NCBI RefSeq assembly: GCF_902784195.1
Contig: NZ_CACZTX010000010.1
Span: 1-36,211, forward strand
Direction of reading: 5' to 3'
DNA length: 36,211 bases
Source of the DNA: an uncultured Methanobrevibacter sp.
Lineage (GTDB): Archaea > Methanobacteriota > Methanobacteria > Methanobacteriales > Methanobacteriaceae
Below the pieces are notes generated by a model. The model made no database searches and was not told where the DNA came from. It was given only the letters and a program-made list of their open reading frames with translations. Positions 5,983-32,960 of this stretch are shown piece by piece (position 1 is the first letter of the stretch; every line of letters starts with the position of its first letter). The translations under genes were made by a program, and so were the position numbers.

Positions 5983-7059
5983 ATGAAGATAAAGGATATA
6001 ATCAAAGACCAATATGGCATCCTATACTCCAGTGAACTGCTTCTGTCAATCATACTGCTTATTTTCATAATAGGAGTTATAGCCAATTTAAGTGATGGGC
6101 TGAATGAAAGAATGATAAGTGAAGAAGAATTTTCATCTCTTGAAACTATTGCTATCGAATCATCGGATTATCTTTTGAATAATCCTGGAAATCCTGAAAA
6201 TTGGGAAGATGATGAGGGATTGAAAAATGGAATCGTGTCGAAAAATATCATTCCAGGACTTGCAATAAAGAATAAAAATGTGGAAAATGGTGAGTTTTTT
6301 GATGAAAGTGCAAGTGATGAAATGATAATGTCAAATGCAATTTCCTATAATAAGCTAATTAAGATAAAAAACAATTACGATTCGCTTGTAGATAGTAATC
6401 TGTTAAATGATAGTGTCATAAGTTCAATGGCTATTTATCCTTTAAACAGTGAAATAAAGCCTATAGAGATGGGATATGATTTTGAAGATAAAAATGATAA
6501 TGTCAATGATAATAACATTGTAACAGTGAATAGAACAGTGAAATGTGATTTTTATTCAAACTTTGTAGTGTATAATTTCAATGATTTTGAGCTGTTCGGA
6601 GATGATTACAATAAAGATATGTTTTGTAATCATGACACTAATCCTTATCTAACTAATCATTCAAATGATGGAAGATCTCTTTGGCTATGTAAAAACTTTA
6701 GAGTCTATAAAGAATCATTGGATGAATATAACTATTATCTGATAAGCGATGAATCTGTAAAAGACACTGGCACTTACTGGATTTTAGAGAGTCTAAATAG
6801 AACAAGTGAAAATAAGGAAATAATAAATCAGGAAGTCATTGACTTAAATCCATTCCTTATGGAAGATTTGGGTAATTCTTCTGATGAAATCTATTCAATA
6901 CACTTTAATGTTCCTAAAAATAGAGTAGGTGATTTTAAAACTGTTTTAGTGGCCATTCCAAAGAACATGACAGATGTTTTAATATCAAATGATGAGTTGA
7001 ATTACGATTACTTTAAAGTGCAGGATGTAAATTTCATTTTAAAAATAGGTTATAAATAG
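5983..7059 (+). CDS. Pilin-like membrane-anchored protein, second of pair
   Basis: A 358-residue protein starting MKIKDIIKDQYG. The chosen ATG is preceded by AGGAG seven bases upstream; a GTG at 5962 in the same frame would overlap the preceding gene and lacks a ribosome site. A short charged leader is followed by YSSELLLSIILLIFIIG, a hydrophobic helix at about 16-35 resembling the SxExLL pattern of archaeal type IV pilin signal regions. The remainder (about 320 residues, acidic and Asn-rich) should face outside. The AGGAG begins within the last base of the upstream TAG, so translation is probably coupled. Together the pair may be minor pilins or pseudopilins of a surface structure; this is inference, as no assembly ATPase is in the window. 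Confidence 0.65.
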   Translation: MKIKDIIKDQYGILYSSELLLSIILLIFIIGVIANLSDGLNERMISEEEFSSLETIAIESSDYLLNNPGNPENWEDDEGLKNGIVSKNIIPGLAIKNKNVENGEFFDESASDEMIMSNAISYNKLIKIKNNYDSLVDSNLLNDSVISSMAIYPLNSEIKPIEMGYDFEDKNDNVNDNNIVTVNRTVKCDFYSNFVVYNFNDFELFGDDYNKDMFCNHDTNPYLTNHSNDGRSLWLCKNFRVYKESLDEYNYYLISDESVKDTGTYWILESLNRTSENKEIINQEVIDLNPFLMEDLGNSSDEIYSIHFNVPKNRVGDFKTVLVAIPKNMTDVLISNDELNYDYFKVQDVNFILKIGYK

Positions 7060-7068
7060 CCAATATTA

Positions 7069-7124
7069 AAAAAAATAGCTAAAAAAAGAAAAAAAGATTT
7101 TTTACTCCCAACTGGGGTAAAAAA
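7069..7124 (-). terminator. Second hairpin and T-run downstream of orc1/cdc6
   Basis: Read on the minus strand, TTTTTTAC and CCC pair with GGG and GTAAAAAA (one bulged A, loop AGTT) at 7124-7098. Two runs of seven T and one of eight T follow, down to about 7069. It lies directly beyond the conserved hairpin element that abuts the orc1/cdc6 stop codon, mirroring the arrangement after the histone gene. Confidence 0.6.
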
Positions 7125-7166
7125 TTTTGGTCCAGGTTTTCGCTCCGAAGGAGCGGAAAAGCTGGG
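7125..7166 (-). repeat. Conserved 3' hairpin element, copy 1 (after orc1/cdc6)
   Basis: Immediately after the orc1/cdc6 TAG the minus strand reads CCCAGCTTTTCCGCTCC, a TTC loop, then GGAGCGAAAACCTGGACC and AAAA. Stems CCAG/CTGG, TTTT/AAAA and CGCTCC/GGAGCG stack into one hairpin with small C mismatches or bulges. The same sequence follows the histone stop codon at 32842-32887, differing by one inserted C and one A. It is GC-richer than its surroundings. Confidence 0.9.
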
Positions 7167-8336
7167 CTATAAAACACTATACAAATTCTCTTCCAAAAGA
7201 TCTGTATCAATTTGCAAGCTAATGATATTGGTTCTGCCTTTAGCTCTGCCTTTGGATACAGTGTTTGTGGAAATGATACCTAACATCTCCAACTCATTTA
7301 CAAAGTCAAAGATTCTTCTATAGGTAACAGCATCCCCTTTTGAAATCTCCTTATAGGCCTCAAATAATTTACCTGAAGTGATTTCCTCTCCTTCTTGAGT
7401 CAATCTTAAGATAGCAGCAAGAACCCTTTGCTGTTGGGTAGGCAATGTTACAATGACATCCTTAACCTTATTGTACTCAATGACATCTTTAGCTTCACGT
7501 ACATATTGACCTAAAACCTTTTCAGATCCCTTGTCAATTGCAATGTCTCCTGCGCTTTCCAATAAGTCAAGTGCATATCTTGCATCCCCTTCCTCTTTAG
7601 CAGCCATAGCTGAACATAATGGAATTACGCTGTCTTCAAGAGTGTTTTCATAAAATGCAAGTTCGGATCTTTCATTCAAGATGTCAGCCAATTGCTCCGC
7701 ATCATAAGGTGGGAACACTATTTCCTTATCCATTAGACTGCTTGCAACTCTTGGCTTAATGAATTGCTTGAAGTTAAGGTAATTACTGATTGACAATATT
7801 GCAATGTTGTCTGTTCTGGTAAGGGTATATAATAAGCCGTCACCATCCTTCTCAAGAAGAATGTCAACTTCGTCTAAAATGACAATCAAGATACGGTTCC
7901 TTCCAAATACATTTCTTTTCAATACATCTCTAAATGCATTTACAATTTCCCCTTTTGTCCAACCACGATTAGGAACTTCCCTTCCTAGCTTTTGACATAA
8001 GTAAGTGAGCACTTGATACTCTGTATTGAAATCCGTGCATCTGACATATTCCACTGAAATGGAAACAGGCTTGTCACGAGCTGCTTCAATCAATTGCTCT
8101 CTTGCAAATTTTGCAGCTGCTGTCTTACCTGTTCCTGTTTTTCCATAAATAGTAATGTTTGATGGAGTAGTGCCTTTTAATGCCTCTACCCAATATCTGG
8201 CAATAGATGTGATCTGTTCTTTCCTATGTGGCAAGTTATCAGGTAAGAAACGATGATCCAAAGGTTTCTTATCCTTAAAGATATTGTCATCCATAGGCAA
8301 GTATTCATCAAGCCCTTCGAAAATGTTGTCACTCAT
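7167..8336 (-). CDS. cdc6: Orc1/Cdc6 replication initiator
   Basis: The archaeal origin-binding AAA+ ATPase that marks the origin and helps load MCM. The 389-residue product has Walker A GKTGTGKT (65-72), Walker B ILDEVD (153-158), a sensor-1 SISN segment (182-185) and a C-terminal winged-helix domain (about 300-389, [19 protein letters not shown]) that contacts ORB repeats. Length fits the family. The start has GAGATGAT a few bases upstream. The gene reads away from a gene-free kilobase full of ORB-like repeats, the usual position of the initiator next to its own origin. Its 3' end carries a conserved hairpin element shared with the histone gene. Weak ORB-like sites 180-350 bp upstream could allow self-regulation. 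Confidence 0.95.
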
Positions 8337-8398
8337 ATAATCATCTCATAAATATAATGTGTTTTTTAAAATTCGATTAATGCGTTGGCGAATTTTAA

Positions 8399-8406
8399 AT
8401 TATAAA
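8399..8406 (-). promoter_or_regulatory. TATA box of orc1/cdc6
   Basis: TTTATAAT on the minus strand, 63-70 bases before the ATG, implies transcription starting near 8375 and a leader of about 40 nt. This is the best TATA-like site between the gene and the origin repeats. Confidence 0.45.
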
Positions 8407-8518
8407 CCCTTTTTAATAAAAATTAAGCATAAGATCTAAAATCGTGTTTTTTGAAATTTTAGAAAAATTAAGTTAAATAATATTAAAAAAATAGAAATTT
8501 TCATATTCAATAGTAAAA

Positions 8519-8691
8519 TTTCAACTGTATTACTATTGTTTATCAGATTATATATTTAAACTTTTTTATAATTTCAAATTTAAGGAACATTCTCAAAAAT
8601 TCAAACAATGGAAAAACTTTAATAATATTAGCTAAAATTGCAAGTGTAATAAAGAAATTAAAAGCATTTAAAATAAATTTTACAGTTGAAA
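8519..8691. promoter_or_regulatory. Three degenerate mini-ORB-like sites
   Basis: TTTCAACTGTATT (8519-8531), TTGCAAGTGTAAT (8638-8650) and TTTACAGTTGAAA (8679-8691). The last differs from the mini-ORB consensus by one base. They lie between the orc1/cdc6 promoter and the strong ORB cluster and could be weaker initiator contacts or autoregulatory sites. Confidence 0.4.
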
Positions 8692-8898
8692 TGGTAGTCT
8701 ATTTTAAAATAAACCTAATTTTTTAATTCAATTTGAATAATTTAAGCTATTTGTAATAATTTTTTAAAAATAATAAAATTTTAACGTTTGATTTTAATAT
8801 TACAAATTAATTATTGTTTAACAATGATTTAATGAAAATTTAATTGCTGACATGATAATTATTTGTAAAAAATAGTTAAAAAAAGACAGAGAGTACCA

Positions 8899-8911
8899 TT
8901 TCAAGTGAAAG
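8899..8911 (-). promoter_or_regulatory. ORB repeat 1
   Basis: TTTCAAGTGAAAG on the plus strand, i.e. CTTTCACTTGAAA on the minus strand, with GAGAGTACC to its left giving the CTCTC box at the usual distance. Confidence 0.7.
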
Positions 8912-8945
8912 CAAAATTGGTGAAAAACGAAAATGAAGGGATGTA

Positions 8946-8958
8946 TTTCAAGTGTAAA
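8946..8958 (-). promoter_or_regulatory. ORB repeat 2 (perfect mini-ORB)
   Basis: TTTCAAGTGTAAA is the exact reverse complement of TTTACACTTGAAA. The extension reads TACATCCCT on the minus strand, sharing TACAT with the distant ORB at 12809. Confidence 0.85.
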
Positions 8959-9055
8959 TTTTTTTCATTGAAAAATTTAAAAACATTATTTGGTCTTTAA
9001 ATCCTGAAAGAAGAATTTTAATGAGGAATTTTTTTAAAAAAGATAGAGACTTAAA

Positions 9056-9068
9056 TTTCAAGTGAATA
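9056..9068 (-). promoter_or_regulatory. ORB repeat 3
   Basis: TTTCAAGTGAATA with AGATAGAGACTTAAA to its left, giving a CTCTATCT box on the minus strand. Same orientation as repeats 1 and 2. Confidence 0.65.
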
Positions 9069-9112
9069 CAAATGAAATATACCTGTCGATACTTTCAAGA
9101 CCCTCGAAATCG

Positions 9113-9125
9113 TTTCACTTGAAAC
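9113..9125 (+). promoter_or_regulatory. ORB repeat 4 (inverted)
   Basis: TTTCACTTGAAAC followed by ACATCTCTCACTCTCT. It faces the other three repeats, giving the inverted arrangement seen in archaeal origins. Confidence 0.7.
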
Positions 9126-9378
9126 ACATCTCTCACTCTCTAAAAAACATGAAAAAAGAATCGTATAAATCATTGAAAATGAAGAAAAATCGTTGAAAAA
9201 TGTGGAAAATAAAATAACATTAATAAATAATTTTTAAAAAAATGATAATAGTAAAATAATGAGGATAATGATAATAAAAATGAAACAAAAAATCATAAAT
9301 AAATCTAAAGAATAATAATTAAAAAATAAATTAATAAATATTAAATAAATAAAAAATAATTAAATTAGAGATTAATGA

Positions 9379-9849
9379 TTATAAATCAGGAATATCATTG
9401 TTTTGAATAGATCCATATGTTTTTCCAAGAATCCATATGCATTGAAGCTTTCCCTTGAACACTTTCTTTATTGTTTTGATTAAAACATGTTTTGAGAGTC
9501 CATCTCCAAATATGTCATCTGTGATGATGAATCTTTTCAATTGATCATTGGGATGATCCAATTCAAAATCAAGAAGCATTTCATTCAATGCAAATCTTAT
9601 CTTCCAAATGAATTCCTGATTGATGTCTTTAGGACTGCTTTTAATAATGTTCTGCTCTTCCTGTGAAACTTCAGTTGCACATCCAATCAATAGAATATCT
9701 GGTTTTCCTTTAGGATTGATTATGTCCATTGCATTGTTGTTTGGAAAGTTAATGATGTAATGGAAATTAGCGTTTTCATCAAATATCTTTTCACGGATAA
9801 GATCCTCTTCCATTAACCAGTTTCTGACTTGTTCTTCATCTATTGCCAT
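9379..9849 (-). CDS. DUF2299-like conserved archaeal protein
   Basis: A 156-residue soluble protein. The opening EEQVRNWLMEEDLIREK, then NANFHYIINFP, INPKGKPDILLIGC and WKIRFALNEM match my memory of the DUF2299 family, small archaeal proteins with a fold related to type III secretion chaperones and no known reaction. No catalytic motif or membrane segment is seen. The start is well set by GGGATGAT four bases before ATG. It lies just beyond the origin region on the same strand as orc1/cdc6, but the kilobase between rules out an operon. The proximity to the origin may be chance. The family assignment is moderately sure. Confidence 0.65.
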   Translation of the reverse strand: MAIDEEQVRNWLMEEDLIREKIFDENANFHYIINFPNNNAMDIINPKGKPDILLIGCATEVSQEEQNIIKSSPKDINQEFIWKIRFALNEMLLDFELDHPNDQLKRFIITDDIFGDGLSKHVLIKTIKKVFKGKLQCIWILGKTYGSIQNNDIPDL

Positions 9850-32637: not shown

Positions 32638-32841
32638 ATGGCAATTCCTGTAGCTCCTATCGGAAGAATCATTAAAGATGCTGGTGCTGAAAGAGTAAGC
32701 GAAGACGCTAAAAAAGAATTAAACGCTTACGTAGAAGCACAAGCTGCTAAAGTTGCTAAAAAAGCTATTAAATTCGCAGAATTAGCAAAACGTAAAACCG
32801 TTAAAGCTGAAGACATCGAATTAGCTATTAGCGAATTATAG
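32638..32841 (+). CDS. Archaeal histone (HMf type)
   Basis: A 67-residue histone-fold protein that wraps DNA as dimers stacking into hypernucleosomes. MAIPVAPIGRIIKDAGAERV is the HMf-like N-terminus; the central helix contains the R/K DNA contacts and the final KRKTVKAEDIELAISEL is the third helix, with RKT as the DNA-binding loop. Usual length. Codon usage is strongly biased (GCT, AAA, GAA), as expected of an abundant protein. The inner ATG is taken as start because it fits HMf proteins; an ATG three codons earlier overlaps the ribosome site. It has an unusual leader and, right after the TAG, a hairpin element shared with orc1/cdc6. Confidence 0.97.
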   Translation: MAIPVAPIGRIIKDAGAERVSEDAKKELNAYVEAQAAKVAKKAIKFAELAKRKTVKAEDIELAISEL

Positions 32842-32887
32842 ACCCAGCTTTTCCGCTCCTTCGGAGCGCAAAACCTGGACCAAAATT
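32842..32887 (+). repeat. Conserved 3' hairpin element, copy 2 (after histone)
   Basis: Directly after the TAG: A, CCCAGCTTTTCCGCTCC, TTC, GGAGCGCAAAACCTGGACC, AAAATT. The stems are CCAG/CTGG, TTTT/AAAA and CGCTCC/GGAGCG with two C-C mismatches. It matches the orc1/cdc6 copy (7125-7166) in the same sense orientation except for one inserted C in the 3' arm and the A after the stop codon. Both genes also end in TTA TAG, so identity begins inside the coding sequence. Confidence 0.9.
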
Positions 32888-32960
32888 CTTATCACTACGT
32901 GTTAGTGATAAGTCTTTTGTTTTTTTACTGTTTTTTTATATTTTTTTACATTTTTTTCTA
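32888..32960 (+). terminator. Histone terminator: second hairpin and T-runs
   Basis: CTTATCACTA and TAGTGATAAG make a perfect 10-bp stem (32888-32912, loop CGTGT). Then TCTTTTG and four runs of seven T follow to about 32957. A clear intrinsic-type terminator for a highly expressed gene. Confidence 0.8.

Follow-up and report, generated by a model that had tools for sequence, protein, structure and literature searches.

Why do an orc1/cdc6 replication initiator gene and an archaeal histone gene of one methanogen carry nearly the same hairpin at their 3' ends? The question is raised by a stretch of 36,211 nucleotides from an uncultured Methanobrevibacter species (assembly GCF_902784195.1, contig NZ_CACZTX010000010.1, positions 1 to 36,211), called the window here, in which an initial annotation recognized the two copies and proposed a mobile element or a 3'-UTR module, along with coordinated control of chromosome genes. 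The observation was right yet understated, as there are far more than two copies. The interpretation was partly right, the evidence supporting a dispersed repeat and probable 3'-UTR module, and no regulator of chromosome genes.

Two Copies of One Hairpin in the Window

The first copy (7125..7166, minus strand) abuts the stop codon (TAG, 7169-7167) of the orc1/cdc6 gene (7167..8336, minus; 389 amino acids; TIGR02928, E 1.6e-118), and the second (32843..32885, plus strand) starts one base past the stop codon (TAG, 32839-32841) of the histone gene (32638..32841, plus; 67 amino acids from the ATG at 32638; NF043032, E 1.4e-24). Both are recognized by sequence, by fold and by covariance model, confirming the coordinates first assigned to them, and at both genes TTA precedes the TAG, also as first noted. 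Each copy forms a single long hairpin with an unpaired ACCAAAA tail and a T-run, followed by a second hairpin and further T-runs. In copy 1 an outer stem (CCAG, 7165-7162, with CTGG, 7135-7132) is separated by a C.C mismatch (7161/7136) from a lower helix (TTTT, 7160-7157, with AAAA, 7140-7137), and the upper stem (CGCTCC, 7155-7150, with GGAGCG, 7146-7141) closes on the loop TTC, the tail occupying 7131-7125. The corresponding parts of copy 2 are CCAG (32844-32847) with CTGG (32875-32878), the mismatch 32848/32874, TTTT (32849-32852) with AAAA (32870-32873), CGCTCC (32854-32859) with GGAGCG (32863-32868), and ACCAAAA (32879-32885). Lower helix and upper stem are joined through a C.C mismatch or a bulged C, and since the additional C of the histone copy merely converts the bulge into a mismatch, every stem pair is kept, in agreement with the initial reading.

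Copy 1 folds at about -17.3 kcal/mol (z -3.9) and copy 2 at about -17.5 kcal/mol (z -4.6); with the second hairpin added, z reaches -4.8 for copy 1 and -6.8 for copy 2, none of the shuffles folding equally well. A covariance model built from the genome copies finds exactly two strong copies in the window (E about 1.8e-16) and 33 in the genome, and a chance similarity of two genes can be dismissed with dozens of copies across the genome.

Upstream of orc1, positions 8336-9379 of the window are AT-rich, down to 18% G+C, and contain repeats of TTTCAAGTG(A/T)AA in both orientations (near 8884, 8937, 9041, and 9113) that resemble origin recognition boxes. This region is a probable replication origin.

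A Frozen Base and Tail, a Variable Paired Top

The copies conform to the consensus CCMAGC-TTTT-(variable GC-rich stem with a UUC loop)-AAAA-CCTKG-ACC-AAAA, in which M and K pair as A-U or C-G. Frozen parts are the base of the hairpin, CAAG-C-TTTT/AAAA-C-CTTG with its C.C mismatch, and the tail ACCAAAA; the upper stem varies wholesale with its pairing kept. Among 31 distinct sequences of one length class, standard pairs fill 97% of the pair cells, 55 cells are changed on both sides versus 19 +/- 3 in shuffles, and the covariation score is 0.348 versus 0.093 +/- 0.014 in shuffles, dropping to 0.08 or below when the partner is slid by one column; these controls remove the relatedness among copies only in part. 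Covarying pairs of the kind that mark a structured RNA are present on the strand that would be transcribed. Of 180 copies, 138 have A-U as the outer pair, 41 have C-G and one has a mismatch. Almost no variation is seen in the T4/A4 helix, the C.C junction, the tail, or the outer G-C and A-U pairs. Part of this invariance is built in, because the copies were chosen by a strict pattern, but it is seen as well in the genome copies underlying the covariance model and in the model hits. One exception is the stem ACTCGCC..GGCTCGT, whose 2x2 mismatch is retained in several copies. Among the 12 non-Watson-Crick events in distinct stems, read on the sense strand, G.U outnumbers A.C by 10 to 2 (p about 0.04), a small sample that favours pairing in the mRNA strand. 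A frozen base and tail beneath a variable but paired top would resemble a protein recognition site set on a structural handle.

Copy Number and Placement in Methanobrevibacter

The genome that contains the window (2.05 Mb), of the M. ruminantium/olleyae type, holds about 20 copies by sequence search and the 33 strong copies of the covariance model, below which come weaker hits to related short hairpins. A further 18 genomes of the genus were searched; 15 give 6 to 83 matches each, one gives a single match, and two give none. Outside the genus, the family sample shows matches, all weak, in just one other genus, and among named contigs, those with the exact core come overwhelmingly from Methanobrevibacter, M. 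olleyae included. Rfam produces no window match at the gathering threshold and only sub-threshold, chance-like hits at a relaxed one, and no description of the element was found by sequence or concept in open-licence papers, a search that is weak evidence of absence.

Placement was read from 191 distinct main-type copies, drawn from all fetched Methanobrevibacter loci. Of these, 144 (75%) begin within 8 nt past a same-strand stop codon, and 32 more lie within 60 nt of one, the gap being mostly taken by another copy or by left halves (CCAAGCTTTTNNN); the remainder are found at tRNA 3' ends, at contig edges, or are open cases, and the opposite orientation is essentially absent. As the median gap between long ORFs is 245 nt in a related complete genome (G011, one contig, 2,937,203 bp), copies placed uniformly and oriented at random would fall this close in only about 2% of cases. 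The search of this and related genomes reveals copies that are not scattered, nearly all of them being at gene 3' ends. At six loci (L171, L184, L223, L124, L168, and L265) left halves (CCAAGCTTTNNNN) form arrays between stop codon and full element, with a period of about 13 nt, and some left-half remnants differ in stem type from the adjoining full copy (L138), as expected if one copy overwrote another.

The hosts in the genome that contains the window are FtsZ, a zinc alcohol dehydrogenase-like protein, a DUF2207 membrane protein (at L031, where a reading as DnaK proved wrong), histone, Orc1, LysRS, GlnK, ArgRS, serine hydroxymethyltransferase (GlyA), Kae1-Bud32, MetX, two thermosome subunits, geranylgeranyl reductase, L15, an XPD/DinG-like helicase, a flavodoxin-like protein, S2, GlmS, IlvC, RibB, pMurD1, ThiC, IMP cyclohydrolase (PurO), LeuRS, a PfkB-type kinase, and tRNA-Val. 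Coordinated post-transcriptional control of chromosome genes, as first suggested from orc1 and histone, is unsupported because these hosts are general housekeeping genes without a chromosome theme and because the histone paralogue never carries the element (absent in 13 of the 13 genomes read). In G011, elements are co-oriented with replication in 56 of 68 cases (82%), versus 178 of 270 sampled genes (66%; p 0.008), an excess that may reflect the housekeeping hosts or a lagging-strand mechanism.

A Candidate 3'-UTR Module

The reading that we favour, tentatively and at somewhat less than an even chance, is that of a REP-like dispersed palindrome that would have become fixed in the genus as a sense-strand 3'-UTR hairpin, shielding mRNA 3' ends upstream of separate U-tract terminators. 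The suggestion of a 3'-UTR module in the initial annotation gains support from the sense-strand, stop-adjacent placement, the conserved pairing, and the greater tolerance of G.U than of A.C. RNA polymerase would transcribe through the hairpin and terminate in the downstream U-tracts, in the manner of aCPSF1/FttA; the 3' end of the transcript would be trimmed back to the hairpin, where the base and the short ACCAAAA tail may act as a barrier to, or a landing site for, a 3'-to-5' exonuclease or RNA-binding protein, and the whole reading frame would thereby be protected. Copies would spread, swapping upper stems through recombination between copies or by another non-Y1 route, and such exchange would produce stem turnover over a frozen, protein-recognized base and tail. 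Bacterial REPs in 3' UTRs are known as exoribonuclease barriers whose deletion shortens mRNA half-life (PMC12306157). As a further, speculative idea, ACCA plus the hairpin might mimic a tRNA acceptor end as a target for RNase P/Z.

A Dispersed Repeat with Relatives across Archaea

The serious rival to the 3'-UTR hairpin, if an unlikely one by our estimate, is a selfish or neutral DNA repeat that would spread by single-stranded DNA or recombination and survive best just outside coding ends, its pairing serving its own spread. One line of evidence in its favour is the patchy presence at orthologous sites. The element follows orc1 in 9 of 17 genomes, the others having T-rich or unrelated sequence past the stop codon and no clear copy, and at the orthologue of the window histone it is present in 8 of 13 genomes, degenerate in one, and absent in four, so that any benefit must be dispensable. 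Where the site is occupied, stems turn over: four genomes with 100% identical histones (L404, L405, L406, and L407) have the stems CGCTCC, CAGCCC, CGGCCC, and ACGGACC, all with pairing kept, and in two genomes TTC/GAA replaces TTTT/AAAA at the histone site. The flanking target-site duplications that would mark a MITE, a non-autonomous DNA transposon, were not seen by eye, a weak indication given how far the empty-site flanks have diverged. Identical stems are enriched between different genes of the same genome (8.1%, versus a background of 3.0%), as selfish spread would suggest, but they are likewise frequent at the same gene in different genomes (10.5%), which points to sites that are partly inherited and to stems that are also exchanged between copies. 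The tandem copies and left-half remnants would fit such a repeat, as would the wider archaeal family described below, which occurs in both orientations relative to genes, and the co-orientation excess, which is also expected of a lagging-strand mobile element. In bacteria, REPs of the GTAG type likewise adjoin stop codons and may even provide them (PMC3733652). What speaks against it is the near-absolute sense orientation in Methanobrevibacter, the recurrence of the element in at least two genomes for many housekeeping gene families, and the lack of an identified mobilizer: the Y1 (HUH) transposase of the RAYT type (PF01797), the one kind of autonomous partner sought, is found in none of the 19 Methanobrevibacter genomes, the 2 that have it among 41 overall belonging to other genera, and no other mobilizer was identified. 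A REP/RAYT origin is thereby rejected. The mobile-element guess of the initial annotation is supported as to a dispersed palindrome with archaeal relatives and with gain and loss between species, though the element is no classical transposon-mobilized REP.

These relatives make up a wider family with the motif CAANC-TTTT..AAAA-NNTTG-AYC-AAAA. The pattern CTTTT-N(2-24)-AAAANNTTGAYCAAAA has hits in 78 of 396 archaeal genomes, covering 39 of 204 genera, versus about half a dozen hits for the reversed control, and several genomes have a variant with a fully paired junction and the tail ATCAAAA. Matches outside Archaea (Flavobacterium, Verrucomicrobiales, and others) and one in Haladaptatus show no clear hairpin and are taken as chance. 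Copies of the wider family adjoin stop codons, ribosome-binding sites or the ends of tRNAs, and either orientation relative to genes is seen. One example is presented by the Altiarchaeota, in which this base and tail directly abut tRNA 3' ends and also form tandem arrays. Three tandem CAAGCTTTT..AAAA(C/G)CTTGACCAAAA hairpins lie directly 3' of a tRNA-Pro gene in genome G157 (C4:3915-4019, L273). An Altiarchaeota genome (G155, L284, around 1500) has CAAGC-TTTTTGGAAAAAA-GCTTGACCAAAA within a tRNA gene, where an anticodon-loop intron would sit, the tRNA (CTCGTA / TACGAG arms) having been read by eye where ARAGORN gave no call. A single copy is found at the 5' side of a tRNA (L272). A further example is given by the apparent Methanocaldococcus genomes, in which the element adjoins stop codons or ribosome-binding sites of opposite-strand genes; at five loci (L349, L355, L358, L362, and L364) CAACC..AAAAGSTTGAYCAAAA is found immediately upstream of a ribosome-binding site that belongs to a gene on the opposite strand, and repeats of the 5' half, like the left halves of Methanobrevibacter, occur as well (L350, L351). 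Two IMG/VR viral contigs contain TAAGCTTTTTGAAAGATCAAAAACCTTGACCAAAA with similar flanks (L237 near 4468, L238 near 5092).

Across the few dozen loci inspected, a shared rule seems to hold, with the CAANC side turned towards the gene and the tail pointing away from it. In archaea other than Methanobrevibacter this points to an insertion rule at the level of DNA, and since placement there is independent of the direction of transcription, the family probably began as a DNA repeat. It is possible, if doubtful, that all these elements form an unnamed pan-archaeal hairpin family with a frozen base (C.C or paired junction), an A(C/U)CAAAA tail and a fixed polarity at gene boundaries, which a conserved archaeal protein would mobilize without Y1 or use in processing RNA 3' ends, the Methanobrevibacter form being a general housekeeping 3'-UTR module whose upper stem is swapped between copies.

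Termination, Translation, and Duplex Binding as Less Likely Readings

Distinctly less probable is a transcription terminator, in which the hairpin and the following AAAAUUUUU would act as a terminator of the intrinsic type or as a pause site aiding aCPSF1/FttA. The sequence beyond the element does invite the idea, T-rich tracts always coming next: the five bases right after ACCAAAA are 82% T, a run of T5 or longer lies within 60 nt downstream of 92% of copies versus 42% in the control, and a second hairpin is often there. Past copy 1, this hairpin (7097..7124, minus strand; predicted by folding) is terminator-like (ACCCCAGTTGGGAGT, with T6/A6 flanks) and is followed by T-rich tracts (7072..7096, minus), presumably an archaeal U-tract terminator, judging from the sequence and the aCPSF1 literature (PMC8716108). 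Past copy 2, the predicted hairpin CTTATCACTA-CGTGT-TAGTGATAAG (32888..32912, plus strand) is likewise followed by a T-rich tract and presumed U-tract terminator (32913..32926, plus). The initial description of the second hairpins as unrelated holds only in part: a motif, ACTAGTTGGGAGT.., trails a subset of copies and is almost absent elsewhere, the hairpin at 7097..7124 being a degenerate member of it, and the one past the histone gene is conserved between species, resembling those of histone orthologues in several others. However, the U-run begins 7 nt past the element's hairpin, unlike intrinsic terminators, which need it within 0-2 nt, and a terminator scan of 6900-7300, around copy 1, found none. 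Moreover, the element is not required for termination, because orc1 orthologues without it mostly go from the stop codon directly into T-rich sequence. The Altiarchaeal relatives usually lack a T-run past the hairpin. Archaeal U-tract terminators, whose characteristic U-tracts are found downstream of these genes and separate from the hairpin, need no hairpins (PMC8716108). An intrinsic terminator is thus rejected by its spacing and by its dispensability at orthologues.

Control at the level of translation appears very unlikely. By analogy with bacteria, a stable hairpin no more than 15 nt from the stop codon might slow terminating ribosomes and so lower or tune protein output, and the 75% of main-type copies within 8 nt of a stop would satisfy the distance rule set by the E. 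coli REPs, which stall ribosomes when within 15 nt of the stop according to Liang 2015, as cited in PMC12306157. Yet the element also lies flush with tRNA 3' ends, a mere roadblock needs no such extreme sequence conservation of base and tail, and down-regulation of highly expressed housekeeping genes would be surprising. Weakest of all, a duplex-DNA binding site for a chromatin or replication protein, though matching the frozen base and tail motif and the two chromosome genes that are hosts in the window, is highly improbable with most hosts unrelated to the chromosome, the histone paralogue without the element, and compensatory stem changes that such a site would not lead one to expect.

Relation to Known Systems and Significance

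The closest known systems are the bacterial REP/BIME sequences, including those with GTAG or CGTC tags, palindromes of 20-50 nt in tens to hundreds of extragenic copies, often directly at ORF 3' ends, with a variable stem and sometimes in tandem, for which mRNA stabilization and ribosome stalling have been proposed as roles. The archaeal element likewise is a short palindrome in many extragenic copies (33 strong copies in its own genome, up to 83 matches in relatives). Unlike them, it has no GTAG or CGTC tag at either end, its flanks being the stop codon and an invariant 3' tail, ACCAAAA; it has a frozen TTTT/AAAA lower helix and in Methanobrevibacter is almost uniformly in the sense orientation. 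As two defining features, the tag and the RAYT, are missing, it is not claimed as a classical REP and is best filed as REP-like, of a new archaeal type. The 'untagged' REP-like palindromes of Mycobacterium, Deinococcus, Brucella, and cyanobacteria (PMC3733652) are also dispersed and without a known mobilizer, but the present element is archaeal, has a motif common across phyla, and is stop-adjacent in Methanobrevibacter. With the aCPSF1/FttA terminators it shares the U-tracts directly downstream, but, unlike these, which need no hairpin (PMC8716108), it is itself optional and separate from the U-tract.

Some likeness may also be seen to a eukaryotic system. The metazoan histone mRNA stem-loop is a hairpin with an A/C-rich 3' flank near the histone stop codon, and is analogous to the element; the latter, however, differs in size and loop, is not restricted to histones, and is absent from the histone paralogue.

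Archaeal mRNA 3' ends have so far been described mainly through U-tracts and aCPSF1. That distant archaea have relatives beside tRNA ends, within a tRNA intron and next to ribosome-binding sites raises the question of which protein reads the motif and how it spread without a REP transposase, and the element supplies a ready covariance model along with natural pairs of genes with and without it. If the 3'-UTR reading is true, a genus-wide, stop-adjacent hairpin whose recognition base is frozen and whose stem is interchangeable would represent a new layer of 3'-UTR architecture in common methanogens of the gut and rumen.
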